A stretch of DNA of 27,956 nucleotides. Source: a virus. Positions 5,487 through 22,295 of this stretch are shown in pieces. The translations under genes were made by a program, and so were the position numbers. The stretch is from IMG/VR virus record IMGVR_UViG_3300035145_001945, positions 1 through 27,956 of that record. One strand, given 5' to 3'. Each line of letters begins with the position of its first letter. Position 1 is the stretch's first letter. The notes beneath the pieces were generated by a model, which was given only the letters and a program-made list of their open reading frames with translations, searched no databases and had not been told where the DNA came from.

Positions 5487-6513
5487 AATATTAGACAGAT
5501 TTGAACTATTGTATCCAAACGATGAAAGATTTGCTGATTTACGTAGAGCATATATTGATAGAGATTTAAACAGTGTGTTTAGATTAGTTGATAAAGAAGA
5601 ACTACGTAAAGCAATAGTTGAAAAAAATATTCACAGTATTTTTAGATGTATTGATAATCAACGTGTGGTTGGTGAAATAGAAGATTTTAGAAAAGCTGTA
5701 ATGGAACAAAATCTTCATAGTTTATTTAGATTACTACCAGGCAATGAAGATTTACGAAAAGCTGTTACTGAAGATAATGAACACAGCATATTTAGATTGA
5801 TTGATAATGACGATCTAACAGGTTTAATCTTATACGATAACATTTATAGTCTTTGGAGGTTGATTAAATCTTATATTGATACACATTTTGTATACGCTTT
5901 TAAGTTTATGAATGAGCAAGGCATCAACTTTGACGAAGATTGTTTTAGCAGAGGACAACTACAAAGTAAGATTTGGCTAGTAAATGAACTTAAACGTGTA
6001 GGTGTCGATTTAGGAACTGTATTTTTATGTGCAGGGTGGTATGGTACACTTGCGGTAATGCTATTTGAATCAGGTATAAGTTTAGAAAAAATCAGAAGTT
6101 TTGACATTGATGAATCTACTGAAGATATTGCAGAGGTGTTTAACAGACATTGGGTGATTAATGATTGGAAGTTCAAACCAGTTGTGCAAGATATACATGA
6201 CATTGACTTTAATGAGCATTGTTATATTGTAAAGAAAAGAGGCGATGATTTTGAAAGATTATGGGATACTCCAGATACTATAATAAACACAAGTTGTGAA
6301 CACATAGAAAATTTTGATACATGGTATGAAAAAATACCTAGTGGAAAACTTGTTGTCTTACAATGTAATGATTATGAAGAGATTGAAGAACATGTAAATA
6401 CACATGCAACAATAGATAGTTTTGCAGAACAAACTCCAATGGATGTAGAACTGTATAGCGGTGAGTTACAACTAGACAAATATAAAAGGTATATGCGTAT
6501 TGGATATAAATGA
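5473..6513 (+). CDS. Repeat-bearing class I SAM-dependent methyltransferase
   Basis: The first 135 of 346 residues are five imperfect repeats of about 22 residues, each (L/F)RKAVxExNxHSIFRLIDN, at about 21-42, 44-62, 72-90, 93-111 and 115-131, predicted helical. The rest is a Rossmann-type methyltransferase core: VFLCAGWYGT (183-192, SAM-binding motif I), SFDID (209-213, acidic end of strand 2) and INTSCEH (271-277, strand 4). The ATG at 5473 is chosen because AAGGA lies nine bases upstream and it gives the 14-base overlap typical of this operon; an ATG at 5443 is in frame but would overlap more. The methyl acceptor is unknown. The repeats probably bind a partner or substrate (inference). Confidence 0.75.
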   Translation: MEIYKILDRFELLYPNDERFADLRRAYIDRDLNSVFRLVDKEELRKAIVEKNIHSIFRCIDNQRVVGEIEDFRKAVMEQNLHSLFRLLPGNEDLRKAVTEDNEHSIFRLIDNDDLTGLILYDNIYSLWRLIKSYIDTHFVYAFKFMNEQGINFDEDCFSRGQLQSKIWLVNELKRVGVDLGTVFLCAGWYGTLAVMLFESGISLEKIRSFDIDESTEDIAEVFNRHWVINDWKFKPVVQDIHDIDFNEHCYIVKKRGDDFERLWDTPDTIINTSCEHIENFDTWYEKIPSGKLVVLQCNDYEEIEEHVNTHATIDSFAEQTPMDVELYSGELQLDKYKRYMRIGYK

Positions 6514-6724
6514 TTTAGAAGTTAGACAACTACAAACTGAAAGTGCTAGAGCACTAAGTACAATGCAAGCTACAAATAATAATATTTGGCAGTTTAACAA
6601 AAAAGCACATCACAATAGTCAAAACTGGTATAAGGCTGTTATCGAATGGTATATTGATCAGTATGGAGACTTGCCTAGCAAAGTAGGTCCTGGTAAGGAT
6701 GTAAAATTAATATACGATGTATAA
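6500..6724 (+). CDS. Small protein of unknown function, 74 residues
   Basis: I do not recognise this protein. It is polar, rich in Asn, Gln and aromatic residues (NNNIWQFNKKAHHNSQNWYK, 26-45), with no cysteine, signal peptide or membrane segment. The start is read as TTG at 6500 with AAAGG eleven bases upstream; the first in-frame ATG is 21 codons in. It overlaps the methyltransferase by 14 bases and the next radical SAM gene by eight, so it is clearly part of the operon. Small genes next to radical SAM-SPASM genes can be peptide substrates or their chaperones, but nothing in the sequence proves that here. Confidence 0.65.
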   Translation: MDINDLEVRQLQTESARALSTMQATNNNIWQFNKKAHHNSQNWYKAVIEWYIDQYGDLPSKVGPGKDVKLIYDV

Positions 6725-7796
6725 GTATGAAAATATAAAAACAATACATTTAGAAAACACACAAAACTGTCAAGCAAGTTGTCCTATGTGTGATCGGAAT
6801 CAAAACGGCGGCGCTTTAAATCCACATATTGATTTGAGTGAACTTACTCTCGATGATTGTAAAACAATATTTGAACCAGATTTTATTGCACAACTAGAAA
6901 CTATGTATATGTGTGGCAACTTAGGTGATCCTATCGTTGCACGTGACACGCTTGATATATTCAAATACTTTAGAGAGCATAACGCAGACATGTGGCTTTC
7001 TATGAATACAAATGCAGGAGCAAAAGATGAAACATGGTGGCGTGAACTTGCCCAAGTCTACGGTAGAATGGGCACTGTTATTTTTAGTGTGGATGGTCTT
7101 AGTGACACTAATCATCTATACAGGCAGGGTGTTGTCTGGGACAATGTAGAACGCAACATGCGAGCATTCATAGATGCTGGCGGCAGAGCACGTTGGGACT
7201 TTTTAATCTTTGAACACAACCAACATCAAGTTGAAGAAGCAGAAGCATTAGCAAATGCTTGGGGATGTGAAAAGTTTATCAAAAAGAAAACAGGTAGATT
7301 TGTTACAGCTAGTAGCGAAAAGAAAGAATCTCATCAAGCAGTAAATCGCAAAGGCAAGGAAACACAAAAGTTATCCAAGCCAAAACAAGAGTTTCAAAAT
7401 GATGCTATAAAACAGTACGACAAAGTAAAAAGCAAACATGGTAGCATGGATGCATATTATGATAGAGCAGAAATCCAATGCAAAGTAAAAGATGAAGGCA
7501 GCTTGTTTATTACAGCAGAAGGACTTGCTATGCCTTGTTGCTGGACTGCTGGACGTATGTACAAATGGTGGCATAAAGATCCTAAGGTAGAACAAGTGTG
7601 GGACTTTATTGATGACGTAGGCGGCAAAGACGCGATCAGTGCTAAGACTCATGGATTACGTGCAGTGTTTGATACAGGTATATTTGATAACATAGAAGCC
7701 AGTTGGAGCAAGCCAAGTTGTGCAGATGGCAAGTTAAAAGTATGTAGTATGAAGTGCGGTAAAGAGTTTGATCCGTTTGGAGCCCAGTTTAAGTGA
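6717..7796 (+). CDS. Radical SAM protein with C-terminal SPASM-like cluster domain
   Basis: The core begins at once: CQASCPMC (C18, C22, C25), then CGNLGDP (C66 onward), which takes the place of the GGEP loop in this subfamily. A long lysine-rich segment (about 185-240) links the core to a C-terminal auxiliary domain with C255, PCC at 273-275, C335, C343 and C347, a pattern expected to hold one or more extra Fe-S clusters as in SPASM/twitch enzymes. The length is 359 residues. The gene at 10053 and the split pair 21633/22295 share the same plan. SPASM-type radical enzymes often act on peptides or proteins, but the substrate is unknown. The ATG overlaps the preceding stop by eight bases and the end overlaps the next gene as GTGA. 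Confidence 0.88.
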   Translation: MYKYENIKTIHLENTQNCQASCPMCDRNQNGGALNPHIDLSELTLDDCKTIFEPDFIAQLETMYMCGNLGDPIVARDTLDIFKYFREHNADMWLSMNTNAGAKDETWWRELAQVYGRMGTVIFSVDGLSDTNHLYRQGVVWDNVERNMRAFIDAGGRARWDFLIFEHNQHQVEEAEALANAWGCEKFIKKKTGRFVTASSEKKESHQAVNRKGKETQKLSKPKQEFQNDAIKQYDKVKSKHGSMDAYYDRAEIQCKVKDEGSLFITAEGLAMPCCWTAGRMYKWWHKDPKVEQVWDFIDDVGGKDAISAKTHGLRAVFDTGIFDNIEASWSKPSCADGKLKVCSMKCGKEFDPFGAQFK

Positions 7797-10060
7797 AATG
7801 TATTTTAACATACGAAGAGGTAGACTTTTCTAGACCTTATGCAAGTCCTTGTTGTCATATTATGCCACAAGACGAGAACTTGCATATTGAAAAAATAACA
7901 AGTTTAAATGATTTGCTACATACAAACTTGTATAGCGATTTAAGAAAAAACATGTCGCAAGGAAACAAAGATCCTTTGTGTAAAGTGTGCTGGAATGATG
8001 AAAAAAATCTTGTGATGAGTGATAGGGTTTTTGAAAATCTTATTAGAAAAAATCGTGATACCGTTGAACTACGTAGTTTGAAAATTGCATTGGATTATAC
8101 TTGTAATATGATGTGTAGGATTTGTACACCTACATGTAGTAGCAAATGGTCAAGCAGTAAGTTAGCAAAAACAAGTTTGTCTAACTTTGATGAATACAGT
8201 TTAGAATATGACAAATATGATATTGTAAAAATTGTAGAAAACAGCGATTTAAGCAAACTAGAAAGAATAAAAATATTAGGCGGCGAACCTTTTTATAGTA
8301 AAAAACTAAACTGGTTTATAGATTATTTACAAGAGCATACTGATTTCGAAAATCTTAGAATGTATATAACAACAAACGGAAGTGTATTTCCTTCTCAAGA
8401 CCTTTTAGATAAAATGTTGCAATGTGATAACTTGTATATTGAACTAAGTTTAGACGCTGTAGGAGATCTTACAAAGTTATGTAGGTGGGGTGTAGATTGG
8501 GAACCTATACACGAAAATATACAAAAATGGCTTACACTTGACAGAAAGAAAGTAAAAATAAGTTCGCATTGTACAATGAGTGTGTATAATGCAAATAAAA
8601 TGAAAGATTTATTAGATTACGTTGAAAAATATAAAATACATTTACATATAAACAAGTTACGTAGTCCTGCTCATTTAAGTCTTGATATGATTGATATTGA
8701 TACAAGAAAATCTTGGTTGTTACCTGGAGATACACCTCATGAAAAGTTAGTAAATCAAAGATTATTACAAGTAGAAACTATACCATTAAAGGCAAAAAGC
8801 AAGTTTATAACCTTTAATAAAATTTTAGACGACTATCAAAAAGAATCTCTAAAAGATTTAAATAGAGAAATTTATGATTATTTTTACGAGAAGCCTATTT
8901 TAAGTAAAACATTTTGTTATTCTCCTTTTAATCAAGTATATATTGGAAAAGACCAAGAAGTAAAACCATGTTGTGCTGCTATACAATCTTTTGGACATTA
9001 TGATAAATCTATTAAAGAAGTTGTAAACAACAAAACTGCACAAGATGCTAGGCAAAGTTTTTTGTTTGGACAATTTCCTAAAGATATTTGTAAAGGTTGT
9101 TCAAACTACTTCAAAGATACAGGAACTTTACACGATGTACAAAAAAACAACAATCTTATTGCACTAGAACATTATGGATTAAGTAAACAAGTTTTACAAA
9201 AAGATTTACAAAAACAAAAACCTGTGTTTTTAGATCTGCTAGTTAGTAACAAATGTAATTTTGCATGTTTAGGTTGTGAATCTAGTTTAAGTTCAACTTG
9301 GGCAAACAACTATACAGATATAGAACAAGAACGTGATAAAGGTGTAAAGCCTGTAAACATTTCGCAGGAATGGCAAAATGATATACAACCTGTTATTGAA
9401 TATATTTTAGAACACAGAGACACAATCAAGTTATTGCATTTAAACGGCGGTGAGCCCTTTATGCAGGAAGGATTTTACAAACTTTTTGATGCGCTTATAG
9501 AACACAAACTGTTTGATATTGAAATAGTTAGTCATACAAACGGCAGTGTTAATACATACAAAGGCAAAGACATTATAAATGAATATTTGTCAAAGTTTAA
9601 CTTTAGTATCATTATGAGTCATGATCATTATGGTGATAGAGGATATTACATGCGATATCCGTTAAATGAAACCAAATGGTTAGACAACTATAAGAGGTTA
9701 CAAAAAGTTGCGCATATTAGTGTGCAAACAAGTTATAATGTTTTCAATGCACTTACACTTGACAAACTAGAACAATGGTATATAGATAATGGAGTTGATT
9801 TGAGTAACTGGGTGTTAAGTCCTTGGCATGGACCAAAATGTTACACAACTAGAATACTAACAGATCAACATAGAGAACAAGCACACAAAGTTTTAGATTC
9901 TTTAACTCACAAGCGTGACTTGCACAGTTTGTTAAATATATCGGATAAAGATCCTTTGTTGTTAAGAAACTTTAAAACAACTATTGCTATGTTTGATAAA
10001 AAAAGGAACACTAACTTTGCCGATACTTTTCCAGAGTTAGCAGAATATTTGAATGATTAA
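7793..10060 (+). CDS. Double-module N-terminal-twitch radical SAM protein
   Basis: Two complete modules head to tail in 755 residues. Module one: Cys domain with C20-C21, C63 and C66; radical SAM motif CNMMCRIC (C104, C108, C111); LGGEP (162-166). Module two: FCYSPF with C375, PCC at 392-394, C433 and C436; CNFACLGC (C488, C492, C495); NGGEP (551-555). The C terminus carries KKRNTNFADTFPEL, the signature also found on single-module relatives. Single-module proteins here run from about 380 to 466 residues, so this is a fusion or internal duplication. Both radical sites and both auxiliary sites look intact. Translation starts at GTG (7793), sharing four bases with the previous stop. Whether the two halves act on one substrate in series or are alternative sites is unknown. 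Confidence 0.9.
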   Translation: MKCILTYEEVDFSRPYASPCCHIMPQDENLHIEKITSLNDLLHTNLYSDLRKNMSQGNKDPLCKVCWNDEKNLVMSDRVFENLIRKNRDTVELRSLKIALDYTCNMMCRICTPTCSSKWSSSKLAKTSLSNFDEYSLEYDKYDIVKIVENSDLSKLERIKILGGEPFYSKKLNWFIDYLQEHTDFENLRMYITTNGSVFPSQDLLDKMLQCDNLYIELSLDAVGDLTKLCRWGVDWEPIHENIQKWLTLDRKKVKISSHCTMSVYNANKMKDLLDYVEKYKIHLHINKLRSPAHLSLDMIDIDTRKSWLLPGDTPHEKLVNQRLLQVETIPLKAKSKFITFNKILDDYQKESLKDLNREIYDYFYEKPILSKTFCYSPFNQVYIGKDQEVKPCCAAIQSFGHYDKSIKEVVNNKTAQDARQSFLFGQFPKDICKGCSNYFKDTGTLHDVQKNNNLIALEHYGLSKQVLQKDLQKQKPVFLDLLVSNKCNFACLGCESSLSSTWANNYTDIEQERDKGVKPVNISQEWQNDIQPVIEYILEHRDTIKLLHLNGGEPFMQEGFYKLFDALIEHKLFDIEIVSHTNGSVNTYKGKDIINEYLSKFNFSIIMSHDHYGDRGYYMRYPLNETKWLDNYKRLQKVAHISVQTSYNVFNALTLDKLEQWYIDNGVDLSNWVLSPWHGPKCYTTRILTDQHREQAHKVLDSLTHKRDLHSLLNISDKDPLLLRNFKTTIAMFDKKRNTNFADTFPELAEYLND

Positions 10061-11099
10061 AAAAGTAGAACTAGAAATAACAAGCGATTGTAATGCTGCA
10101 TGTCCTGGTTGTGCTAGGACACTGAATAGCGACCTTTTACAAATTAATAGTTTTTCATTTGAAGATCTACAGCGTATTTTTCCATCACAAGATTATACTG
10201 GAGTAGAGTTTAAGTTTTGTGGAGTATTAGGCGATCCGATTGTAAATCCTGACTTTTTGCACATGATTGAATATTTAACGGATCTAGGAGGTTATTGTGA
10301 AGTTAGTACAAACGGAGGATATAACACAGCAGATTGGTGGCGCAAGTTAGGTGCTATTGCAGCAAAACATTCTGGTCTTGTACATGTGCATTTTTGTATA
10401 GATGGACATAAAGAAACCAACCACATCTATCGTGTAAACACAAAGTGGAATATTGTAGAACGTAATATTGCTGCATTTGCAGAAACAGCACCTGAACACA
10501 ATGCAACATGGGTGTATATTGTTTTTGATCATAACGAACACGAACTCGAAACAGCAAAAACACATGCAACTGTGTTAGGGTTTGACTTTGCAACTAGAAC
10601 AGGAATGCGTAACAGTTATCATGATTGGATTGCAAAGTTAGGTAAAAAAGACAAAAAAGTTGAAAAGAAAATTACAACCACAGGCAAAAAAGAACACAGC
10701 AAAAAAAATGTTATACAAGATTTAGATAGATTTATTGCTGAATACAAATCTAATAAAGCAGATGAAAATGAAACCACAGAAGTTTTGAAAACAGTAGTTT
10801 GCAAATACATACACGAAGGTGAAATATTTATTGCCAGTGATCAAACCATGTGGCCTTGTTGTTTTTTGTGGGACAGTGCATTTAAAAATAGAGAAAACAT
10901 AATCAATCGACTGAATCATTTTGATCCTGGATGGAATAGTTTAAAAGAAAACAGTATAGAAGATATACAAAGACATGAATGGTTCACTGAACTTCTTGAA
11001 GCAAGTTGGGAACCTACACACCCATTGCATTTCACAAGATGTATTCGTACTTGTGCTAAAAACAAAGCATATCATAATGAGATAAACTATGAAGCCTAA
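10053..11099 (+). CDS. Radical SAM protein with C-terminal SPASM-like cluster domain
   Basis: Radical SAM motif CNAACPGC (C13, C17, C20) directly at the N terminus, then CGVLGDP (C56 onward) in place of GGEP. A lysine-rich insert (about 195-220, KKDKKVEKK and GKKEHSKK) separates the core from a C-terminal cluster domain with C250, PCC at 268-270, C330 and C334, and a DPGWNSL segment at 291-297. It shares its architecture with the gene at 6717 and, in its last hundred residues, aligns by eye with the separate small gene at 22295 (DPGWNSL against DPDWNNL). The length is 348 residues. The ATG overlaps the preceding gene by eight bases. The substrate is unknown. Confidence 0.88.
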   Translation: MIKKVELEITSDCNAACPGCARTLNSDLLQINSFSFEDLQRIFPSQDYTGVEFKFCGVLGDPIVNPDFLHMIEYLTDLGGYCEVSTNGGYNTADWWRKLGAIAAKHSGLVHVHFCIDGHKETNHIYRVNTKWNIVERNIAAFAETAPEHNATWVYIVFDHNEHELETAKTHATVLGFDFATRTGMRNSYHDWIAKLGKKDKKVEKKITTTGKKEHSKKNVIQDLDRFIAEYKSNKADENETTEVLKTVVCKYIHEGEIFIASDQTMWPCCFLWDSAFKNRENIINRLNHFDPGWNSLKENSIEDIQRHEWFTELLEASWEPTHPLHFTRCIRTCAKNKAYHNEINYEA

Positions 11100-11845: not shown

Positions 11846-13246
11846 ATGAGCAAAGTAAGCGATACATTTTGCATCCTGCCTTGGGTGCATCTAAGCACAA
11901 GGCCAGATGGCAGTATGAGAGTTTGCTGTACAGCAAATGCATCAAGTGTTGGCCCAACTAACGACAAAGAACACGGTGGACAAGTTGGCATTCTTAAAAC
12001 TGACGACGGCAAACCTAATAACCTAAATGTAACAGATTTTCAAACTGCATGGAATAGCAAGTACATGAAAAACGTTCGTAAGCAAATGATGAACGGTGAG
12101 CAACCTCCTAGTTGTTTAAAATGCTATAAAGAAGAAGCAGCAGGACATAATAGTAAACGCATGTGGGAAACAGCATATTGGAGTCAAAGAACTAATGTTG
12201 ATGAACTTATTGCTAACACAACAGAAGATGGAGAAGTACCACCACAACTTGCATATATTGATTTGCGTTTTGGTACAAAGTGTCAACTAGCATGTGTTAT
12301 GTGTAGCCCACATGATAGCTCGGGATGGATAAAAGATTATAAAAAGATATTTCCAGCAGTCCAAAATGAATCTCTTAAAGAAACTATGCAATGGCAAGAT
12401 AAAGGCAGCACAAATGGTAGCAGTTATAACTGGCATAAACAGAATGATGTGTTCTGGGAACAGTTTTATGAGCAAATGCCAAGTATGCAACAGATTTATT
12501 TTGCAGGCGGCGAAAGTCTTATTATTGAAGAACACTATGAAATACTTGAACATGCTATCAAAATGGGATATGCAAAAGATTTAGAACTACGGTATAACTC
12601 AAACGGAGTTGAATGGCGTGAAGATTTATTTGATTTATGGAAAGAGTTTAAACTTGTACGTTTTCATTATTCAGTAGATAGCATACACGAAATGAATGAT
12701 TATATACGTTATCCTAGTAAATGGAAACGCACAGAAGAAGTGTTTCATATATTAGATAAAGAAACAAGCAACAATGTTGAAATAACAGTTGCTTGTGCTG
12801 TACAAGCACTCAATATATATTATTTGCCTGATTTTATAAAATGGAAACTTACACAAAACTTTAATAAAATCAACATGTGGCCATTTGGTGCAGGAGGTAT
12901 AAACTATCACTTTGTGTATCATCCTCCACACCTTAATGTAAAAGTTTTGCCAGAATGGTTTAAAACAGAAGTGCGTAAAAAGTATGAGGAGTTTTATCCT
13001 TGGTGGGAAGAAAACTGGGAACTAGGTGTACCTGTTTGGCACAAAGGTAAAGTTACAAAAGAAATGTTTGATGCTGCACCGTATGGTATAAAACGTTTAA
13101 AAGGTATGTTAAGTTTTATGGAAAGTGAAGATTGGAGTAGACGTTTGCCAGAGATGCAAGAGTTTTTACAAAGATGTGACGGACAGCGTGGTAATAACTT
13201 TGCTGAAGTTTTTCCTGAGATGCGAGACATATTTGATGGACGATAA
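11846..13246 (+). CDS. N-terminal-twitch radical SAM protein
   Basis: Architecture: N-terminal SPASM/twitch-like Cys domain FCILPWVHLSTRPDGSMRVCC (C9, C27-C28) closing with CLKC (C90, C93) and an EEAAGHNSKR helix; radical SAM motif CQLACVMC (C146, C150, C153); AGGES (220-224), where serine replaces the usual proline; C-terminal GQRGNNFAEVFPEM signature. In well-known SPASM enzymes the extra cluster domain is C-terminal; here it precedes the core, as in the family annotated as twitch domain-containing radical SAM proteins. The length is 466 residues. The start follows a four-base gap and has only a weak ribosome site. Its end overlaps the first QueC-like gene by 11 bases. Confidence 0.9.
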   Translation: MSKVSDTFCILPWVHLSTRPDGSMRVCCTANASSVGPTNDKEHGGQVGILKTDDGKPNNLNVTDFQTAWNSKYMKNVRKQMMNGEQPPSCLKCYKEEAAGHNSKRMWETAYWSQRTNVDELIANTTEDGEVPPQLAYIDLRFGTKCQLACVMCSPHDSSGWIKDYKKIFPAVQNESLKETMQWQDKGSTNGSSYNWHKQNDVFWEQFYEQMPSMQQIYFAGGESLIIEEHYEILEHAIKMGYAKDLELRYNSNGVEWREDLFDLWKEFKLVRFHYSVDSIHEMNDYIRYPSKWKRTEEVFHILDKETSNNVEITVACAVQALNIYYLPDFIKWKLTQNFNKINMWPFGAGGINYHFVYHPPHLNVKVLPEWFKTEVRKKYEEFYPWWEENWELGVPVWHKGKVTKEMFDAAPYGIKRLKGMLSFMESEDWSRRLPEMQEFLQRCDGQRGNNFAEVFPEMRDIFDGR

Positions 13247-14072
13247 ACAATATTTACAGCACTTAGAACTGCTGTATAAGGCACACAAACGTAAATATGA
13301 AAATATGTGGAATATTAAATATCCGGATATATTTCATGTAAATGGATTGCCTATTCATTTTGATTCTAGAGCAAAGAAAATACTTATAGCCTTAAGTGGT
13401 GGTGCTGATAGCACTATGGTTACATATATGTTATGTAAACTTATAGAGGAGCAAGGATTTGACACTAAAATAAGTTGTTTTACAATGGTAAGATTTTGGG
13501 ATGTAAAACCTTGGCTAGAACCAATGGCAAAAGATGTGTTTACATATTTAAAAAACACATTTCCTAATATAATAGATGAACATCATTGGGGATTTTTGCC
13601 TCCTCAGTTAGAAGTTGTACCATTGTTAAAAGCAGGTATTGTTGAAGACTTGCCTCCAACAGCATCGTGTGATGTACTGTGTACAGTAGAATATCAAAAA
13701 TATCTCCTTAAAACAAAAGGATATCAATACACATATTCGGGTAATACAATGAATCCGCCAACTGGTCATAGCGAAGCGCCGCAGTTTAGAAATATCGATA
13801 AGATAAAAAATGACATAACTTTTGTCATAAGTGGACCGTCAATAAATCCATTTGGTTTACTACATAAAAACTTTACTATGGCACAATATATTAACTATGG
13901 ATTAAATGATTTGTTGGCTCTTACTCGTAGTTGTGAAGGCAGCATTGTTGAGTTTGGCGAAGAATATCTACACAACAACGATTACCCACCAGAGTGTGGA
14001 AAATGTTTTTTCTGTGAAGAAAAAACTTGGGGTTTTAACAACGCCGAAGGATATTTGTTGGAGAACTTATGA
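13236..14072 (+). CDS. QueC-like PP-loop ATPase, copy 1
   Basis: Residues 51-59 contain the N-type PP-loop IALSGGADS, which binds ATP and releases pyrophosphate while adenylating a substrate. The C-terminal third has TRSCEG (C233) followed by CGKCFFC (C254, C257, C260), the four-cysteine zinc site arrangement of QueC, the enzyme that makes preQ0 from carboxy-deazaguanine. YSGNTMNPP (167-175) sits where QueC has its substrate-loop strand. Bacterial QueC is about 230 residues; this one is 278 with an N-terminal extension, and the usual FDYGQRH and VPGRN motifs are not seen, so a changed substrate is likely. The ATG at 13236 is chosen because the protein is colinear from there and it overlaps the prior stop by 11 bases. 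No QueD, QueE or FolE is visible in the window. Confidence 0.72.
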   Translation: MDDKQYLQHLELLYKAHKRKYENMWNIKYPDIFHVNGLPIHFDSRAKKILIALSGGADSTMVTYMLCKLIEEQGFDTKISCFTMVRFWDVKPWLEPMAKDVFTYLKNTFPNIIDEHHWGFLPPQLEVVPLLKAGIVEDLPPTASCDVLCTVEYQKYLLKTKGYQYTYSGNTMNPPTGHSEAPQFRNIDKIKNDITFVISGPSINPFGLLHKNFTMAQYINYGLNDLLALTRSCEGSIVEFGEEYLHNNDYPPECGKCFFCEEKTWGFNNAEGYLLENL

Positions 14073-15403
14073 GCTTACCTTGTTATTATGCATTAGGCGG
14101 ACTAAACTATAAAAATGGCTTTGTAACAAGTTGCCCTCAGCAACACGAAAAGTTTCAAACTATTGCCGACGAACACTTGCCAAGCAAGTTTTTTAACAAC
14201 GAAAATCTTCGCAATCATAGAAAGCAACTAATGTCTGGTGAATGGTGCAAAGGTTGCGATATGTGCGAGCATGTTGAAAAAGAAGGTGCAGGTAAAAGTA
14301 TGCGCCAAGAAGATCCAGTTGATTTACAATACTATAATCACGAAACTGGAGAAACAGACTTTGCAGGACTAAAGACTATTGAAATGCGTTTTAGTCATAG
14401 CTGTAACATGGCATGTTTGCATTGTAGTAGAGTCTTTAGTAGTGGATGGCTAAGCAAACTTAAACGTTACGAACCTACACAAGAGGATTATGATCATAAA
14501 CTGATACAGTTGACAGGACAAATGCATAGAAGCAGTCCTGATGACGATTACACAATGAGTATAAGCACCGAACGTGCTTTAGAAATATTTGAAGATTTAA
14601 ATAAAAACTTTCCTAACTTAGAACGTGTTGATTTTGCCGGAGGCGAAGTACTATATCAAAAGCAGTTTTTTCCTGCACTAGAAAAACTTGCAGAACATCC
14701 TAATGCAAAACATATGAAGATTATTTTTCACAGCAACTTCAATGCAGATTTTGATCCAGTTAGATTAAGCGAGTTATTACATAACTTTGGTAATGTACAC
14801 ATACAAATAAGTGTAGACGCAGGTCCACGTATATATGCATATTTTAGAGATGGCGATTGGGAAAAGTTAAAAAGCAACATTGCTGCCTTTAAAGCAGCAG
14901 ATAACAATCATTGTGAACTTAATATTGTATACACAACTGGCACATATCAACTTATGGAAATAAAAGATGCCATGTTGAACTTCTTAGAGCTTGACATTAA
15001 CTATATTGATGCTAGTATAATATATACACCCTCCTATCTAAATCCTAGTGTTATGATGCTGAAACATAGATACAAGGTGTTAAATGATATTGAGGAAACA
15101 CGCAACGAAATAATAAAAGTTGATAAGCAGCGTAGACAAAACTTAGAAGAAACAAGCAAGTTATGCAGCTATCATGTTATGGAAGAAGTAAAGGAGTATC
15201 CACTTTGGAGTGATACAATGAGTGCTATAAAAAGTTTAGAAACCATTAGATCTTATATTCTAAATCACGATAGCAACTCGCAAGATTGGAAAAGTTTTAT
15301 GAAGTATATTGAGCGCACTGACGAACTTTGGCAACAAAGTTTTAACGAGCATTTTGTAAACTATCAATATGTAAATGGAGAAGTTGTACGTGTTTCAAGT
15401 TAA
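14069..15403 (+). CDS. N-terminal-twitch radical SAM protein, variant Cys set
   Basis: The radical SAM motif is CNMACLHC (C112, C116, C119) and the SAM loop is AGGEV (190-194), valine instead of proline. The N-terminal auxiliary domain is unusual: the first region has C5 and a single C22 rather than the CC pair of its relatives, and the closing motif is CKGCDMC (C60, C63, C66), one cysteine more than usual. The C-terminal FPEL signature is not clear; only SFNEHF remains. It lies between the two QueC-like genes, with ATGA at its start and a 14-base overlap at its end, so it may be the radical partner of one or both. The length is 444 residues; the substrate is unknown. Confidence 0.88.
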   Translation: MSLPCYYALGGLNYKNGFVTSCPQQHEKFQTIADEHLPSKFFNNENLRNHRKQLMSGEWCKGCDMCEHVEKEGAGKSMRQEDPVDLQYYNHETGETDFAGLKTIEMRFSHSCNMACLHCSRVFSSGWLSKLKRYEPTQEDYDHKLIQLTGQMHRSSPDDDYTMSISTERALEIFEDLNKNFPNLERVDFAGGEVLYQKQFFPALEKLAEHPNAKHMKIIFHSNFNADFDPVRLSELLHNFGNVHIQISVDAGPRIYAYFRDGDWEKLKSNIAAFKAADNNHCELNIVYTTGTYQLMEIKDAMLNFLELDINYIDASIIYTPSYLNPSVMMLKHRYKVLNDIEETRNEIIKVDKQRRQNLEETSKLCSYHVMEEVKEYPLWSDTMSAIKSLETIRSYILNHDSNSQDWKSFMKYIERTDELWQQSFNEHFVNYQYVNGEVVRVSS

Positions 15404-16211
15404 TAATAACATGTATAAAACTTTAGATAACGTTTTGTTAACAAATGTTTCAAAACTTGATATTCCTTTTGATCAACGTTGGAAACGTATAGGTGTAAAT
15501 CTAAGTGGCGGCGCTGATAGTGCATTACTTACATATTTGCTATGTAAAATTATCCTAGATAATAAACTAAAGACACAAATAGACATTATTACATACCAAC
15601 GTTGTTGGGAAACAAGACCGTGGCAAGGATACGTAGCACAACAAGTTTACATGTGGTTGTTAAACAAGTTTCCTAAAATATTATATAAAAGACATTTAAC
15701 ATACATACCACCTGAACTTGAGCATGGTGTTATAGGACCAGTAATAAATGGCAAAAGCGGAGATCAAATAATAGTGGGCAGTTACAACAAGTTTGCTGCA
15801 TGGCAGTATAACTTAGATGCAGTATACAATGCAACAAGTAAAAACCCAGATGATTTGCGTGAAGACCGTATGACCAACAGAGACAAAGATGCAGAAGATG
15901 GTAATCTTACAGATCTGTGGTTTTACAGCGGTAAAGTAAATGCAACATTTGTGCATCCTTTTAGATTTGTAAAAAAAGATTGGATAGTTGCACAATACCA
16001 CATACATGAGATTTTAGATTTATACAACACAACACGTAGTTGTGAAGGAGATATTAATCATCACGATAATGTAAAAGAAGCATGTGGACATTTTAAGGAT
16101 TATAAAGAAGGTATGCATATTCCTATTTGCGGACAATGCTGGTGGTGTGAAGAAAGATCGTGGGCAGAAAAGCAAGTACCAGATGTTATAAAGGAAATAC
16201 ATGAGTTTTGA
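15390..16211 (+). CDS. QueC-like PP-loop ATPase, copy 2
   Basis: Paralogue of the gene at 13236, sharing VNLSGGADS (36-44), RPW (77-79), PPELE (107-111), TTRSCEG (214-220) and CGQCWWCEERSW (247-258). The zinc-type cysteines are C218, C247, C250 and C253, with an added C232. It has a large insert between the PP-loop half and the zinc site containing NRDKDAEDGN, absent from copy 1. The chosen start is GTG 15390 because GGAGAAG lies six bases upstream and the 14-base overlap is typical of the run; ATG 15411 (no ribosome site) and ATG 15375 are alternatives, and none alters the domain. QueC-like proteins are also known from anti-phage systems (Qat, type IV CBASS), where they serve roles other than queuosine synthesis. 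Confidence 0.72.
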   Translation: MFQVNNNMYKTLDNVLLTNVSKLDIPFDQRWKRIGVNLSGGADSALLTYLLCKIILDNKLKTQIDIITYQRCWETRPWQGYVAQQVYMWLLNKFPKILYKRHLTYIPPELEHGVIGPVINGKSGDQIIVGSYNKFAAWQYNLDAVYNATSKNPDDLREDRMTNRDKDAEDGNLTDLWFYSGKVNATFVHPFRFVKKDWIVAQYHIHEILDLYNTTRSCEGDINHHDNVKEACGHFKDYKEGMHIPICGQCWWCEERSWAEKQVPDVIKEIHEF

Positions 16212-17355
16212 TACAATAGATCTCTTAACAGGAAAAGTATTTCAAGTCACGTGGGATTTAGGCAGACGTTGTAACTACGATTGTTCATATTGTCCTGCAC
16301 ATAGACATGACAACTTTAGCAAACATGCTACGTTAGAACAACTAAAAAATAACGTGGATTTTCTATTTGAATATACAGATCTGTATATGACTTATAGAAA
16401 GTTTAAAGAAGCAAACTTTGGATTCACAGGAGGGGAACCTACAGTCAATCCAAACTTCATTCCATTTGCAAAATACTTGCGTGAATCATACGAAGAAAAA
16501 TATGCAGATAAATGGGAAGCAGGATTTGCACTTACAACAAATGGCGCAATGAGCGAAAAAATGGGTTATGCAGTAATGGAAAACTTTGGCCATGCTACTG
16601 TAAGTTACCATGCTGAAAGCGACAACAAACTAAAACAGCAAGTTAGAGACAGAATATTACAGTTTCATTATACAGGAGAAATGTTTGATTTTACTGTTAG
16701 CGTTAATGTAATGTTTCATGCAGAATATTTTGACGAATGTGTAGAACTTTGTGAGTTCTTAAGACAACACGAAGTAGACTTTGTACCAAGAGTTATTGGT
16801 GAGGAGCCTGATAGTAAACCTACATTTGCACACAAGTATAATGAAGAACAACTTGCATGGATGAAAAACTACTGGAAACAAAAAAATGATGCATTGTATG
16901 CAAATAGTGCAGCAGGTGATGTGGTAAAAAACGCTAAAAAACTTGGTAACAGTATTGGACGTCCGTGTTGTGGAAGCAGAGACATGATGTTGTTTAATGG
17001 CACAGATAGTAAAAAAAGCACATTTGTAGATTTTAGAGAGTTCAAAGATTGGGATTGTAGTGTGAACTGGTTTTTCCTACACTTAGAACAGCAAACAGAT
17101 CAAATTTTTCACCATCAAACGTGCCAAGCAAGGTTTGATTATAAGCGTGGTGCTATTGGTAGAATAAGTGAAGGTAAAGAACTAGTTGCAAAACTTAGAG
17201 AACAAATGGAAACAGGAACTTTACCAGTTATCAAATGCCCAAAACAAACATGCGGTTGCGGATTATGCGCACCAAAAAGCATGTATAACGACAAACTAAT
17301 GAATATTTTACATAATCATATCGATACAGGAGTATTAGATGTTAATAGTAGGTAA
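16201..17355 (+). CDS. Radical SAM protein with extended C-terminal cysteine set
   Basis: Radical SAM motif CNYDCSYC (C24, C28, C31) and TGGEP (76-80), with LTTNG (111-115) on the next core strand. The C-terminal half carries many cysteines: CC at 256-257, C286, C308, C346 and a tight CGCGLC (351-356), enough for one or two auxiliary clusters in a SPASM-like domain. This plan, N-terminal core and GGEP loop with a large C-terminal Cys set, differs from both other radical SAM types here and resembles the partial gene at the left edge in its motif region. It has 384 residues and overlaps the second QueC-like gene by 11 bases with AAGGA upstream. The SDR-like gene follows with a 17-base overlap and may act on the same substrate (inference). 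Confidence 0.87.
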   Translation: MSFDTIDLLTGKVFQVTWDLGRRCNYDCSYCPAHRHDNFSKHATLEQLKNNVDFLFEYTDLYMTYRKFKEANFGFTGGEPTVNPNFIPFAKYLRESYEEKYADKWEAGFALTTNGAMSEKMGYAVMENFGHATVSYHAESDNKLKQQVRDRILQFHYTGEMFDFTVSVNVMFHAEYFDECVELCEFLRQHEVDFVPRVIGEEPDSKPTFAHKYNEEQLAWMKNYWKQKNDALYANSAAGDVVKNAKKLGNSIGRPCCGSRDMMLFNGTDSKKSTFVDFREFKDWDCSVNWFFLHLEQQTDQIFHHQTCQARFDYKRGAIGRISEGKELVAKLREQMETGTLPVIKCPKQTCGCGLCAPKSMYNDKLMNILHNHIDTGVLDVNSR

Positions 17356-17893
17356 TAAAAACGAAGGGTTGGCAAAGGCATTGTACAAGTTATATCCAGA
17401 TGCAGAGTTTTGCAGCAGAGCTACTGGTTACGACTTTGGTAAAAAAGCTGACATGGAGCGTTGTGCAGAAGCAGCAGTAATGCATGATGTTATTATCAAC
17501 TGTAGTGCTTTGTTTAGATTTCATCAAACAAGTTTATTAGACATTATCTACAAAAAATGTCAAGTAGAAAAACATAGACCGCACATTATTAACATAGGTA
17601 GCACAACTGACCGTGTTAAGAAAGGCGGATCGTGGTTGTACAATGCTGAGAAAAAAGCATTAAGAGACTATAGTAACACACTTGGCTTAACAGGTGTATG
17701 GAGTCAAGCACCGAAAGTAAGTTATATTAGTTTTGGAACACTAAGTAACAAACAAGATAAGCATCCAGATAGAAAAGTAATGGATATGCACGAAGCTGCT
17801 GAGTATATCAAATGGATTATTGATGCACCTAAGCATCTCAATATCAATGAACTTAGCATTGATCCAATGCAATCGGAGTTTTGGTATGGCTAA
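17339..17893 (+). CDS. Short SDR-like NAD(P)-binding protein
   Basis: A 184-residue protein that keeps the catalytic signature of short-chain dehydrogenases: Ser88 in INIGSTTD (85-91), Tyr101 and Lys105 in YNAEK, and a VIINCSA strand (51-57) where the NNAG motif sits. The N-terminal nucleotide loop is GNKNEGLAKA rather than the classical TGxxxGxG, and the chain is about 60-70 residues shorter than a typical 250-residue SDR, so the dinucleotide site may be altered. An NAD(P)-dependent oxidoreduction is the likely reaction; the substrate is unknown. GGAG lies upstream of the ATG. Confidence 0.72.
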   Translation: MLIVGNKNEGLAKALYKLYPDAEFCSRATGYDFGKKADMERCAEAAVMHDVIINCSALFRFHQTSLLDIIYKKCQVEKHRPHIINIGSTTDRVKKGGSWLYNAEKKALRDYSNTLGLTGVWSQAPKVSYISFGTLSNKQDKHPDRKVMDMHEAAEYIKWIIDAPKHLNINELSIDPMQSEFWYG

Positions 17894-19034
17894 AATGCCC
17901 AAATATGGATGTGTAATGCCATTTCATCACATGGCTATACGTCCTGACGGGCAAATATTTCCTTGTTGTGTTTTTAGACAAGAAGAAGTGCCTGAAGATT
18001 TAAATGTAAGTCATCCGGATCCATTTAATCACGAGTATATGAACTATCTAAGACAAAAAATGTTGAAAGATGAGTATGTGCATGGATGTCGCAAGTGTTA
18101 TGAGGACGAAGCAACCAGTGCAAGGAGTATGCGCACCGACTTGGTTGCACCTTGGATGAACAGTTTAGGACTTCCAAGCAAAGACGAAGGCTTAGGAAGA
18201 GTAAAAAAGCTCACAAACATTGATTTAGCCTTGTCAAATGTGTGTAATAACAAGTGTCGGATGTGTATGCCTGAACTAAGCACACATTGGTATGGTGATG
18301 CAAAGAAACTTGGCTGGGATATACCCAAGGGTATCGTAACAAACAATACTATTATTGACGATTATGATCTAAGCGACTTGCGATTCATAAAACTACTTGG
18401 CGGTGAGCCAATGATGGAGCAAGAAAAGCTCACTAAAGTGTTACAAAAATGTACACTTGAGCAACTTACTGTGTTACTTGTAACCAACACAAGTTTACGT
18501 CCTAATGATGAACTGTTAGGACTTCTAAAAAAATGTAATAATGTAAATATTACACTTAGCATAGACAGTTGTGGCAAACTTAATGAGTTTTTACGCAAAG
18601 ACAGTGTTTGGGACACTGTTGAAAGTAACATGAAATGGTATAAGCAGCACTTTGATAACATCAATGTACATAGTGCAATAAGTATCTACAATGTAAATCG
18701 TGTTCATGAGATTATTGATTGGTGTGCAGATAACGAACTGTATCACGAGTGTGTGCTTATTGACGGTCCTAAATATATGCAGCCAAGAAATCTGCACGAG
18801 GATATAAAACCTTGGGTAATCACTTACTTAGAAGAAAAAGAAAAAGATTACGATGTGCGTTATAGGAAAATATTTAAACTGTTACGTACTGAAGTAGAAC
18901 AACCTGGCGATTTTGGATTGTTTTTACGCAACGATGCACAAATGAATAAAATACGTGACGAACATATTATGACGTCAAATCCTGAACTTTGGGAAAAACT
19001 AGAAACTGTTATTACTGCGGAGAGCTATGCATGA
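17886..19034 (+). CDS. N-terminal-twitch radical SAM protein
   Basis: Start ATG at 17886, with GGAG seven bases upstream and an eight-base overlap with the SDR-like gene; the frame is open further upstream, but that would run through the SDR-like gene. N-terminal auxiliary domain: GCVMPFHHMAIRPDG (C9), PCC (C27-C28), CRKC (C68, C71) and an ATSARSMR helix. Radical SAM motif CNNKCRMC (C120, C124, C127), LGGEP (171-175). At 382 residues it is the shortest member of this architecture in the window, and its C terminus lacks a clear FPEL signature, ending in SNPELWEKL. The substrate is unknown. It ends in ATGA with the next gene. Confidence 0.9.
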   Translation: MAKMPKYGCVMPFHHMAIRPDGQIFPCCVFRQEEVPEDLNVSHPDPFNHEYMNYLRQKMLKDEYVHGCRKCYEDEATSARSMRTDLVAPWMNSLGLPSKDEGLGRVKKLTNIDLALSNVCNNKCRMCMPELSTHWYGDAKKLGWDIPKGIVTNNTIIDDYDLSDLRFIKLLGGEPMMEQEKLTKVLQKCTLEQLTVLLVTNTSLRPNDELLGLLKKCNNVNITLSIDSCGKLNEFLRKDSVWDTVESNMKWYKQHFDNINVHSAISIYNVNRVHEIIDWCADNELYHECVLIDGPKYMQPRNLHEDIKPWVITYLEEKEKDYDVRYRKIFKLLRTEVEQPGDFGLFLRNDAQMNKIRDEHIMTSNPELWEKLETVITAESYA

Positions 19035-20344
19035 TAAAAGGTGAAAAAACATTTTGCCCTATACCTTGGATATTTCAAGCTGTGCGTAGCAACGGAGATA
19101 TACGTGTATGTTGTCAAGCAAACGTAACAAAAAATAGAGGAGTTGTACGCAAAGAAGATGGCACAGCGTATAATGCAGGTGTAGACGATCTAAGCGAAGC
19201 ACGTAATGCTAAACTTATGAAGGATATTCGTAGGAACATGATGAGCAGTAAATGGAGTGACGAGTGCGGACGTTGTATGCAAGAAGAAGAAGCTGGACTT
19301 ACTAGTCGTAGACAATACGAAAGAGTTCAATGGAAGTTTGGTATGCTTGATGCTTTAAAAAGCACAAAGTTAGACGGCAGTATTGATGTCGAGAAGTCTC
19401 CTGTACAATATTATGACTTACGTTTTGGTAACTTTTGTAACTTAAAATGTAGAATGTGTGGTCCGAGTGATAGTAATGCATGGTTTGAAGATTGGATAAA
19501 ACTTACAGGCAAACAAAGTTTTATGGACACTAGTGGCGAAGTTACAATCGAAGAAGTTAATGGTAAACTTTGTGCTGCTGACTTTGATTGGCCAAACAGT
19601 GAAATGTTTTGGACACAAATGGAGCGCAATATACAACACATGGAACATGTATATTTTGCAGGTGGTGAACCAATGCTTATAGAAAGGCATTACGAGTTTT
19701 TGCAAAAATGCATAGATAGCGGATATGCTGAAAATATCATGCTTGAATACAATACCAACGGAACTACATTACCTCCTAGAGTTGTCAAGTTATGGGAACA
19801 GTTTAAGGAAGTTAGACTAGGAGTAAGTGTAGACGGCATGGATGCAGTTTTAGAGTACCAACGTTATCCAGTTAAGTGGAGCAAAGTGTTAAAGAATCTA
19901 AAAACTATTGATGCATTACCTAACAACATAAAAGCATGGCTTGCATTTACAGTTACAGCATACAATGTTGAACATATGATTGATTTTATGAAATGGAAAG
20001 TCGAAGAAAGTGGATTTAAAAAAATAAACAATGGAGGTGTAAAACCTATTATTACTCATCATGTTGCACACAATCCTCCGCATTTAAATATTAGAGTTCT
20101 ACCTGATGAATATAAAAAAGAACTTACACAAAAGTTTGACGACTTTGTTGAATGGTCAAAAGATTATGATAAAAAATATCAAATAGCTGCACTTGGTATA
20201 CGCAACGGTGTTTGTAAGTACATGAATGATTATAGTTATAACAACACACATTGGGCAGAGTTTATACAATACACAAAAGATTTAGACCGTATTAGAAATG
20301 AAAATATTTACGATGTAGTACCGTCATTAGGAAGGTACATATGA
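19031..20344 (+). CDS. N-terminal-twitch radical SAM protein
   Basis: Start ATG at 19031, with GGAG eight bases upstream and an ATGA overlap; an in-frame TTG at 18989 would add an unconserved stretch. Auxiliary domain: FCPIPWIFQAVRSNGDIRVCC (C9, C27-C28) and CGRC (C79, C82). Radical SAM motif CNLKCRMC (C136, C140, C143), AGGEP (210-214). C-terminal signature DRIRNENIYDVVPSL. The cysteines up to the radical SAM motif have exactly the same numbering as in the gene at 22584, and the DLRFGN(F/L)CNLKC block is shared, so these two look like the most closely related pair in the array. It has 437 residues; the substrate is unknown. Confidence 0.91.
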   Translation: MIKGEKTFCPIPWIFQAVRSNGDIRVCCQANVTKNRGVVRKEDGTAYNAGVDDLSEARNAKLMKDIRRNMMSSKWSDECGRCMQEEEAGLTSRRQYERVQWKFGMLDALKSTKLDGSIDVEKSPVQYYDLRFGNFCNLKCRMCGPSDSNAWFEDWIKLTGKQSFMDTSGEVTIEEVNGKLCAADFDWPNSEMFWTQMERNIQHMEHVYFAGGEPMLIERHYEFLQKCIDSGYAENIMLEYNTNGTTLPPRVVKLWEQFKEVRLGVSVDGMDAVLEYQRYPVKWSKVLKNLKTIDALPNNIKAWLAFTVTAYNVEHMIDFMKWKVEESGFKKINNGGVKPIITHHVAHNPPHLNIRVLPDEYKKELTQKFDDFVEWSKDYDKKYQIAALGIRNGVCKYMNDYSYNNTHWAEFIQYTKDLDRIRNENIYDVVPSLGRYI

Positions 20345-21636
20345 CAACTCTAGTTGAAATGAAAACCAAGTTACAAGATTTAGGTGTAAATCCTGATACT
20401 TTTTGTTTTGCTCCATATATAAATGTTGACCTAGATCAAACAGGCGAAACATATGTGTGTTGTGCAAGTAAACAAAGTATCGGTAACTGGAAAACAGATA
20501 AAATAAAAAATCAATATAATAGTTCACAGATGCAAGAGCTACGTAGTAGTCTGTACAATGGAGAAAAACATTCTTCGTGCAGAAGTTGCTGGTTTGCAGA
20601 AAGTAAAAACAGTAAATCCACACGTTTAGATAGTTTTAACGATGCCATTGAATACATTGATGATTTGCAAAACTTTGTAGGCGATATCAAACAAAATGTT
20701 GATATGTCATCTACAGACAATATCAAACGTATGGAAATAAGATTAAGTGCATTGTGCAACTTGAAATGTGCGCATTGCAGTCCAAAGTATAGTACTCAAT
20801 GGATAAACACTCTTACTGAAAAAAGCAACTTTGACTTTTTTAAAGATTATGACGAGTTTGAAGACAACTTATCTCATGACAATATAAACAAGTATTTTAG
20901 CACAAGTCTACACAGTAACAGTAAGCACGAAAATGACATCAAAGAAATGTTATCAAATACTAACTTAATACAGTTTGCAGGCGGAGAGCCATTGTTAAGT
21001 CCAGAACATGTTTCTTGGTTAGAATACTTAGTAAACGTAGCAAAAACATCTAAGACGCAAACAATAGAATACAATACTAACTTGATGATTAAAGATATTG
21101 AAAAGTTTTTTGATTTATGGAGACAATTTAAATCAGTTACTTTGAGATCCAGTATAGATACAGACTTAGATAGTATAGAATACTTTAGAGCTAACAGCGA
21201 TAAAAACTTGTTAAAAAATAACATAAAGAAAATACATCAGTTAGAAAATGTTGATAACATTGGTACTGTAACTTTTAACATGACATCGGCACTTAGATAT
21301 AAAAATATTATGCATGATTGGATTGAACATGATTTAAACTTTCATTGTAGTATTGTGCATAACCATCCGTTTAGTTGTTTAGAACTACCTACAAATCTTC
21401 ATAGACAATGTGTTGCAGATATGCAATGGTGTAAAGACAATGTACACAAGTATACAGACAATAATAAGTTTGTTAAACGTTTTAAAAAATACACAGACTA
21501 CTGTTTAAACTTTATTACAAATCATACACCAAAAACACATATGTCTAAAAGCACAATAGAATATATAAAATTTTATGATAAGGTCACAGATAAAAATATA
21601 TTAGATTTTTTTCCAGAACTTGAGGAGTATGTATGA
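20341..21636 (+). CDS. N-terminal-twitch radical SAM protein
   Basis: A 12-residue N-terminal addition precedes the auxiliary domain: FCFAPYINVDLDQTG (C22), CC at 40-41, CRSC (C80, C83) and a KNSKSTR helix. Radical SAM motif CNLKCAHC (C139, C143, C146), AGGEP (213-217). C-terminal DKNILDFFPELEEY. The length is 431 residues. It starts and ends with four-base ATGA overlaps. Codon use looks the same as in its neighbours, with no sign of recent transfer relative to them. The substrate is unknown. Confidence 0.91.
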   Translation: MTTLVEMKTKLQDLGVNPDTFCFAPYINVDLDQTGETYVCCASKQSIGNWKTDKIKNQYNSSQMQELRSSLYNGEKHSSCRSCWFAESKNSKSTRLDSFNDAIEYIDDLQNFVGDIKQNVDMSSTDNIKRMEIRLSALCNLKCAHCSPKYSTQWINTLTEKSNFDFFKDYDEFEDNLSHDNINKYFSTSLHSNSKHENDIKEMLSNTNLIQFAGGEPLLSPEHVSWLEYLVNVAKTSKTQTIEYNTNLMIKDIEKFFDLWRQFKSVTLRSSIDTDLDSIEYFRANSDKNLLKNNIKKIHQLENVDNIGTVTFNMTSALRYKNIMHDWIEHDLNFHCSIVHNHPFSCLELPTNLHRQCVADMQWCKDNVHKYTDNNKFVKRFKKYTDYCLNFITNHTPKTHMSKSTIEYIKFYDKVTDKNILDFFPELEEYV

Positions 21637-22295
21637 AAATAGACTGGGCAAAAGACTGGCAAGGTTTTGAACTAAGCATTACGACATATTGTCAAGCCAA
21701 TTGTCCTTTGTGTGTGCGTACAGATAGACAAACTGGTAAGTTAAAAAGTTATGTTAGATTAGAGCATTCTAATATTGATACAATAATAAAAACTATAAAT
21801 GATGTTGCTAAGTATACCTCTTGTGAAAAGATACAACTATGTGGTGATTACGGAGATCCATTAATGCATCCACACATAGAAGATATTATATATGAAGTCG
21901 AAAAAGTAGGTTTATGGACAAGTATACATACAAACGGTGGCTTAAGAAATCCAGGGTTTTATAAAAAGATCGCAATGACAACTGAAACTGTGTTTGTCTT
22001 TGGTATTGATGGTATTGACGAAAAAACTAATTCTAAATACCGCATAGGTGTAAACTTTGATAAAGCAATGGAAAACATGAAAACATTTGGAGCATATGCA
22101 AAAAAATATTATTCAGAGTGGGATTTTTTAATCTTTGATTATAACTATGAACAACTTGACGAAGCAATAGAAATAGCAGAATCTAATAATATTAAGTTAA
22201 ACTTTCGTATTAATACAAGAGATTGGAAATATAAAATAACAGACAAAAAACTTATTGAGCATATAAGATCTAAGTATAAAGAAAGGTTGTTGTAA
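21633..22295 (+). CDS. Radical SAM core, stand-alone (split from its cluster domain)
   Basis: A 220-residue protein with CQANCPLC (C20, C24, C27) and CGDYGDP (C70 onward), the same plan as the first 190 or so residues of the genes at 6717 and 10053, with the DFLIFDYN strand also shared. It stops exactly where those proteins have a lysine-rich linker, and the C-terminal Cys domain is encoded by the next gene in a different frame. The junction is TAATG, a one-base overlap, and the next gene has its own ribosome site. I read this as a natural split enzyme whose two chains probably assemble, although an older frameshift that became fixed would look the same. Confidence 0.85.
   Translation: MKIDWAKDWQGFELSITTYCQANCPLCVRTDRQTGKLKSYVRLEHSNIDTIIKTINDVAKYTSCEKIQLCGDYGDPLMHPHIEDIIYEVEKVGLWTSIHTNGGLRNPGFYKKIAMTTETVFVFGIDGIDEKTNSKYRIGVNFDKAMENMKTFGAYAKKYYSEWDFLIFDYNYEQLDEAIEIAESNNIKLNFRINTRDWKYKITDKKLIEHIRSKYKERLL

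Follow-up and report, generated by a model that had tools for sequence, protein, structure and literature searches.

The known roles of the QueC fold have recently widened beyond queuosine precursors, for example to nucleobase–protein joining in anti-phage defence. Cap9 of type IV CBASS (cyclic oligonucleotide-based anti-phage signalling system) conjugates a nucleobase to a protein (PMC13329287, PMC11996544) and carries CE and PF(x)4K motifs (PMC13329287), and QatC of the qatABCD system lacks the Y/D clamp (PMC13279940). The abundance of radical S-adenosylmethionine (SAM) proteins in marine phages is also already known, from a T4-like marine genome with 12 radical SAM genes (PMC5332604) and from the pelagimyophage host-recognition cluster, which holds radical SAM cassettes together with glycosyltransferases (PMC7029224). 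Here, we analysed a viral fragment of 27,956 bases, IMG/VR record IMGVR_UViG_3300035145_001945 (the whole stretch is referred to as the window), in which both kinds of protein are encoded side by side. The order rS4–QcA–rS5–QcB–rS6 is formed by five open genes on the + strand with overlaps of 4–14 nt (11846–17355). QcA and QcB represent a previously undescribed QueC-like branch, designated Qc, in uncultivated T4-like marine phages; no paper describing the Qc clade or its fusions with rS5 was found in the literature searched. The five genes are as follows:

rS4, 11846–13246, + strand: N-twitch radical SAM protein, 466 aa, among the best-conserved members of the cluster.
QcA, 13236–14072, + strand: QueC-like PP-loop/zinc protein, 278 aa; SGGADS at about 13395–13412; predicted zinc cysteines C233, C254, C257, and C260.
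rS5, 14069–15403, + strand: N-twitch radical SAM protein, 444 aa; radical SAM cluster motif CNMACLHC; partner of QcB.
QcB, 15390–16211, + strand: QueC-like PP-loop/zinc protein, 273 aa; SGGADS at about 15504–15521 and NATSKNP at about 15828–15848; predicted zinc cysteines C218, C247, C250, and C253.
rS6, 16201–17355, + strand: radical SAM protein of another type, 384 aa, PF04055 match of 37.9 bits; located after QcB or after an rS5–QcB fusion in many relatives.

The original prediction, made from the window sequence alone, described an alternation of radical SAM and QueC-like genes. This was confirmed: the five genes are co-directional and overlapping, and their order is kept in relatives. All records used are fragments from uncultivated viruses with mechanically called open reading frames (ORFs). 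The order rS4–QcA–rS5–QcB was found in the window and in about 23 further viral records, several of them near-identical, and rS4–rS5–QcB without QcA in about 11 further records. Since the four-gene order is conserved across related viral records, it is not due to chance. The start of QcB is GTG at 15390, in the same position as the ATG start of its relatives. Overlaps of a few bases between + strand genes continue along most of the record; the window holds 14 radical SAM units with CxxxCxxC, and the five-gene alternation lies inside this run.

QcA and QcB are paralogues, as had been proposed (hhalign probability 100, 32% identity over 238 columns). In single-sequence searches against the Pfam QueC family PF06508 (cut-off 22 bits), QcA scored 14.4 bits and QcB gave no match; a member of the Qc clade from contig L176 exceeded the cut-off with 31.5 bits, and others were near or above it. 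The alignment with the canonical QueC profile spanned most of QcA (probability 71, E 3.6e-5, a single comparison); for QcB, it was weak and confined to the C-terminal region. AlphaFold models had a pLDDT of 90 for QcA and 81 for QcB. For both models, the best fold match was QueC 3bl5 (QcB, Z 14.1, rmsd 3.1 over 173 residues; QcA, Z 13.4, rmsd 3.9 over 183 residues), with Cap9 9nto at Z 13.0 (QcB) and 11.7 (QcA) and QatC at about 11.5 for both (9y02 for QcB); matches within Z 1 were counted as tied. Other PP-loop enzymes (TilS, NcsA, and LarE) were close behind, with TilS, NcsA, and TtuA chains at Z 10–12. Because they score nearly as high, the fold alone leaves the QueC assignment undecided, and the zinc site and the motif order decide it. 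A sequence search of the PDB with Qc yielded P-loop-level noise only.

Motifs were compared with the QueC-family signature (PMC13329287) and the Cap9 and QatC pocket residues (PMC13279940). The SGGADS P-loop and four C-terminal cysteines of a predicted zinc site are kept in QcA and QcB at positions invariant in the alignments. The first spacing of the zinc cysteines is 20 residues in QcA and 28 in QcB, vs. C(x)8CxxCxxC in canonical QueC, and the Tyr of TxSCY is replaced by Glu. YPDC, VPxRN, and YxQxHxxE are all absent from both proteins. The earlier remark on unseen key QueC motifs therefore holds for these three but not for the P-loop and the zinc cysteines. Instead, the clade carries PF(x)4K, T(R)SCE, and CxxC[WF]xCxERxW, together with GxTxNP in exact or closely similar form. 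Among 120 Qc domains, dereplicated at 90% and selected by P-loop and zinc patterns, loose patterns retrieved Y.DC anywhere in two, a VPxRN-like stretch in two, and YxQxHxxE in one. In a profile search without a motif requirement, 371 of 389 complete Qc ORFs (redundant counts) had SGGxDS, which argues for selection on ATP chemistry; ten of the 18 exceptions had SGGxDT. Judged by sequence and model, QcA and QcB are QueC-like ATP pyrophosphatases with the predicted fold of QueC, Cap9, and QatC.

With QueC itself (PF06508 cluster 1; 3bl5 and 2pg3), the Qc proteins share the predicted fold, SGGxDS, four zinc cysteines, and the lysine after a P-containing strand. They differ in the three missing motifs, TRSCE in place of TxSCY, a longer zinc loop, and the lack of queD/queE neighbours in these fragment records; identity in structural alignments was 15–18%. 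The likeness to Cap9 includes the predicted fold, CE at the zinc site, PF(x)4K, and CxxCxxC, whereas Qc proteins have no Y.DC clamp, a spacing longer than CE(x)6CxxCxxC, radical SAM neighbours, and a length of about 275 aa vs. about 185 aa. The Cap9 partner, a CD-NTase (cGAS/DncV-like nucleotidyltransferase), was not noticed in the window, and the records were not searched with a CD-NTase profile. QatC (9y01/9y02) has a similar predicted fold and has also lost the Y/D clamp, but Qc proteins lack its long N-terminal extension and the ST[RK]TTH stretch, have other neighbours, and are shorter (about 275 vs. about 400 aa). PADLOC defence models gave weak or scattered matches to the QcB family (the QatC model touched one of 24 members, E 0.037), and a role of Qc as a defence system was rejected for this reason. 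WbpG and the N-acetyl sugar amidotransferases (PF06508 cluster 5), in which PP-loop amide/amidine chemistry is tied to surface glycans (PMC13329287), could be functional analogues, with a different cysteine pattern, CxxC(x)6CxC.

The 120 dereplicated members of the Qc clade come from uncultivated aquatic viral contigs. No counterpart of QcA, QcB, or three divergent Qc proteins was found among 50,697 records of cultured phages. Among the matches listed in a search for cellular relatives, one came from the genome collection: L099, a contig that carries phage-like genes and was binned to a metagenome-assembled genome. Relatives of QcA were identified via synteny, as single-sequence QcA patterns were too specific and retrieved none from the viral contigs. 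In a FastTree reconstruction, Qc domains formed a single clade separate from QueC and QatC (Shimodaira–Hasegawa-like support 0.889), so both window proteins, for which phylogenetic placement had been suggested, fall in a new clade; Cap9 was excluded because its sequence came from a PDB alignment containing a gap. QcA (0.998) was sister (0.957) to a group of QcB plus the fusions (0.91), with short Qc proteins (approximately 200–240 aa) outside, and the QcA/QcB split is therefore old. Deep branches are tentative, as the alignment has 238 columns and the outgroups share very little identity with Qc. L030 encodes another QueC-like protein (17970–18830; FFSGGMESS and CGKCFNCQQR), which falls outside the Qc clade and lies two genes past a radical SAM gene.

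The strongest of the new evidence concerns the linkage of rS5 and QcB. Relatives of rS5 were gathered independently of Qc. At 57 of the 80 rS5 loci, Qc was the next gene downstream, and at seven, it was fused. Once the loci were dereplicated at 80% identity, 35 could be assessed, and Qc was adjacent in 25 of them and fused in 4 (29 in total), against a background of 14% Qc among the other ORFs of the same loci; owing to shared ancestry, the 35 loci represent fewer independent events. The fusions, of 827, 830, 832, 843, and 873 aa, come from several metagenomes, and neither the iron–sulphur motif nor the P-loop has been lost in them. Their group in the tree also contains three unfused proteins, and fusion is therefore likely to have happened once or twice. 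A 624-aa protein of L381 is a fusion of Qc with a different, short-type radical SAM domain. In three loci, L020 (8507–9966), L024, and L027, only the C-terminal half of rS5 is present (190 aa, profile columns 241–438), before an intact QcB, and QcA has SSGADS in place of SGGADS. Together, the adjacency, the fusions, and the C-terminal-half variant argue for a physical or metabolic rS5–QcB unit, and the two proteins very probably act together. More broadly, a radical SAM gene was within four genes of 109 of the 120 distinct Qc domains, and 91 were adjacent or fused; neighbours were labelled with profiles or single sequences of window proteins, which missed some, e.g., the radical SAM gene beside Qc in L162. 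At the level of sequence comparison, the family, the predicted fold, the motifs, the loss of the clamp, and the rS5–QcB linkage are established.

The other radical SAM genes listed for the window are:

rS1, 6717–7796, + strand: short-type radical SAM protein.
Double radical SAM protein, 7793–10060, + strand: 755 aa, tandem pair of N-twitch radical SAM units, with two NF033640 stretches.
rS3, 10053–11099, + strand: short-type radical SAM protein, paralogue of rS1, syntenic in relatives.
rS7, 17886–19034, + strand: N-twitch radical SAM protein.
rS8, 19031–20344, + strand: N-twitch radical SAM protein, closest paralogue of rS4.

The Pfam Radical_SAM family matched rS4, rS5, and rS6 above the cut-off, each with CxxxCxxC. 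The NCBIfam family NF033640 (N-twitch radical SAM, cut-off 170 bits) includes rS4 (427 bits), rS5 (199), rS7 (238), rS8 (381), and the double protein (411) but not rS6 (30), rS1 (39), or rS3 (31); fusion of this family to a QueC-like domain was not found in the literature searched. For rS5, no solved structure was related at E 0.1. rS4 was 76–96% identical across the QcB-type records. The original prediction considered the alternation as a duplicated two-gene module of radical SAM and QueC, and this was not borne out. The closest paralogues of rS4 in the window are rS8 (251 bits) and rS11 (199), while rS4 and rS5 share just 71 bits, about the value for rS5 and rS12; rS6 had no significant paralogue among the window radical SAM proteins compared. 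In several relatives, QcA was lost alone, with rS4 directly before rS5. Since the radical SAM neighbours are not mutually closest and QcA comes and goes alone, the module duplication was rejected, and only the Qc gene was duplicated. In a single relative (L004, record G004, position 69593), an asparagine-synthetase-like protein (424 aa, assigned by eye) is encoded directly upstream of rS4.

The wider setting contains genes for other kinds of chemistry:

Amidinotransferase of the StrB/SxtG/HsvA kind, 23851–24909, + strand: phmmer E 1.8e-28 to 1bwd, 1e-26 to 6u1r, and 4e-26 to 5wpi.
PLP (pyridoxal phosphate)-aminotransferase-like protein, 26217–27143, + strand: assigned by eye, no database match; in other phages, relatives immediately precede Qc.

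Relatives of both proteins are neighbours of Qc in other phages, and elsewhere Qc is accompanied by Asp/Asn hydroxylase, TauD, and O-fucosyltransferase (O-FucT) families. On the − strand of the window, a short AMP-binding (adenylate-forming) enzyme of 329 aa (1597–2586) adjoins a tail-fibre-like gene and has approximately 90% identity in several relatives. In L176 (5944–7332), a nucleoside triphosphate (NTP)-transferase-like domain is fused to a short Qc protein (weak match, 21.6 bits vs. 27). The long relative G022 is T4-like according to PHROGs (portal, major head, baseplate wedge, and tail-fibre proteins), and its portal is nearest to those of large phages, e.g., Sinorhizobium phage Phosso (54%). 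Baseplate and fibre genes are located ahead of the cluster in G022, and the same size pattern was seen in other long records.

It is quite possible, if short of probable, that the Qc clade amidates a carboxylate on a substrate shared with rS5, within a pathway for decoration of fibres or the host surface. By analogy with the QueC fold, QcB would split ATP at the SGGADS loop and convert a substrate carboxylate to an acyl-adenylate, from which an amine or ammonia would displace AMP to give an amide. The substrate would be other than 7-deazaguanine. rS5 would use radical chemistry on the same substrate, before or after QcB. The rS5–QcB unit may belong to a larger pathway with many radical SAM proteins, the amidinotransferase, the AMP-binding enzyme, and the aminotransferase-like protein, located in or near the tail-fibre/host-recognition region. 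Its product would most likely be an unusual sugar- or amino-acid-like group, built or trimmed and displayed on virion fibres or the host surface. The earlier suggestion of non-queuosine QueC-like enzymes that work with radical SAM proteins is supported by the missing deazaguanine clamp, the lack of TGT (tRNA-guanine transglycosylase)/DpdA in 32 records, the lack of a QueE-type motif in seven long records, and the rS5–Qc fusions. Qc is a further widespread branch of the QueC fold, carried by phages, that lacks the deazaguanine clamp and is sometimes fused to a radical SAM protein. The natural single-chain fusions provide one testable protein, which makes the radical SAM excess of T4-like marine phages experimentally approachable.

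Several observations weigh against this interpretation. Roughly one in ten Qc relatives lacks a radical SAM gene within four genes, and six of the 35 rS5 loci have no neighbouring Qc. Adjacency of Qc and radical SAM genes is in itself weak evidence because the density of radical SAM genes is high here. Of 34 related records, 8 encode FolE; QueD exceeded the cut-off in two distant records and in none of the QcB-type ones. Twitch/SPASM radical SAM proteins often act on peptides, which favours a protein substrate.

In a serious, although less likely, alternative, the radical SAM and Qc proteins form a system resembling those for ribosomally synthesized and post-translationally modified peptides. 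They would modify a tail-fibre protein or a small conserved protein, SP, and Qc would activate a peptide carboxylate or attach a group to a protein N-terminus like Cap9. The genes in question are:

SP, 6500–6724, + strand: conserved 74-aa protein with a TTG start overlapping the end of the preceding gene; candidate substrate or scaffold.
Methyltransferase-like protein, 5482–6513, + strand: fold assigned by eye only, no family match; directly upstream of SP.

SP fills the only large gap in the window (6514–6716). It has a constant length and 58–95% identity across close relatives, and 506 viral stretches match it; it had no convincing PHROG and no relative among cultured phages. Of 68 loci, 62 have the methyltransferase-like gene ahead of SP, and in most phages, rS1 is the next gene downstream. 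SP is part of the cluster and could be a substrate or scaffold. Upstream of SP, in L450 and L452 and in L459 and L463, homologues of genes 4155 and 5482 are apparently fused (854–869 aa), or else the homologue of 5482 reaches a length of 1222 aa. The conserved position of SP, the peptide targets usual for twitch/SPASM enzymes, and the CE and PF(x)4K motifs common to Qc and the protein-conjugating Cap9 (PMC13329287, PMC11996544) are consistent with protein modification. However, SP has no variable core or cysteine-rich segment, Qc was within 4 kb at only 3 of 80 SP loci (the flank was short), and the amidinotransferase, AMP-binding, and aminotransferase-like genes better suit small-molecule chemistry. 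It is likewise conceivable, though rather doubtful, that a multi-enzyme line of a dozen or more radical SAM proteins and bifunctional radical SAM–QueC ligases furnishes a phage protein (SP or the tail fibres) or the host surface with a hitherto unknown chemical group. This would be a new phage-encoded radical SAM modification system reusing the QueC scaffold for a new reaction.

That Qc makes or uses 7-deazaguanine (for preQ0, DNA modification, or deazaguanylation) via divergent recognition residues is improbable. The QueC-like fold and the FolE and QueD matches mentioned above are compatible with such a role, and loss of the Y/D clamp is shared with QatC (PMC13279940). On the other hand, Qc lacks YPDC, VPxRN, and YxQxHxxE, none of the 32 records contained TGT/DpdA, the QueE-type motif CxxxCxxCD[TS] was not found in seven long records, and the Qc partner is an N-twitch radical SAM protein and not QueE. 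Thus, of the deazaguanine genes whose presence elsewhere had been named as a check, DpdA and a QueE-type motif were not found in these sets, while FolE and QueD were found in part of the records. As no record was rated complete, these absences are provisional. Since QueD was limited to two distant relatives and neither the QueE-type motif nor TGT/DpdA was detected, preQ0 is unlikely, and preQ0/DNA modification was rejected as an incomplete pathway.

We also consider it improbable that Qc proteins are nucleic-acid modifiers similar to TilS, TtuA, or MnmA that do not amidate carboxylates. The TilS_N profile weakly matched all 24 QcB-family members (best E 1.4e-6), in line with the fold matches to TilS, NcsA, and TtuA; in the window protein, however, the match covers the generic P-loop region only (residues 34–88), and the C-terminal zinc site and PF(x)4K resemble QueC, Cap9, and QatC. 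A role as non-catalytic partners that regulate or hold radical SAM enzymes, suggested by the single lineage with SSGADS in QcA and a truncated rS5, is more improbable still given the conservation of SGGxDS.

For genes 4155, 5482, 26217, and 27140, family searches gave no distinctive match. The gene after rS6 is syntenic in relatives:

Small protein resembling short-chain dehydrogenases/reductases (SDR), 17339–17893, + strand: adh_short match of 15.7 bits, below the threshold.

A short-type radical SAM gene at 21633–22600 is apparently split into two ORFs (220 and 101 aa), the second of which has the C-terminal cysteines.

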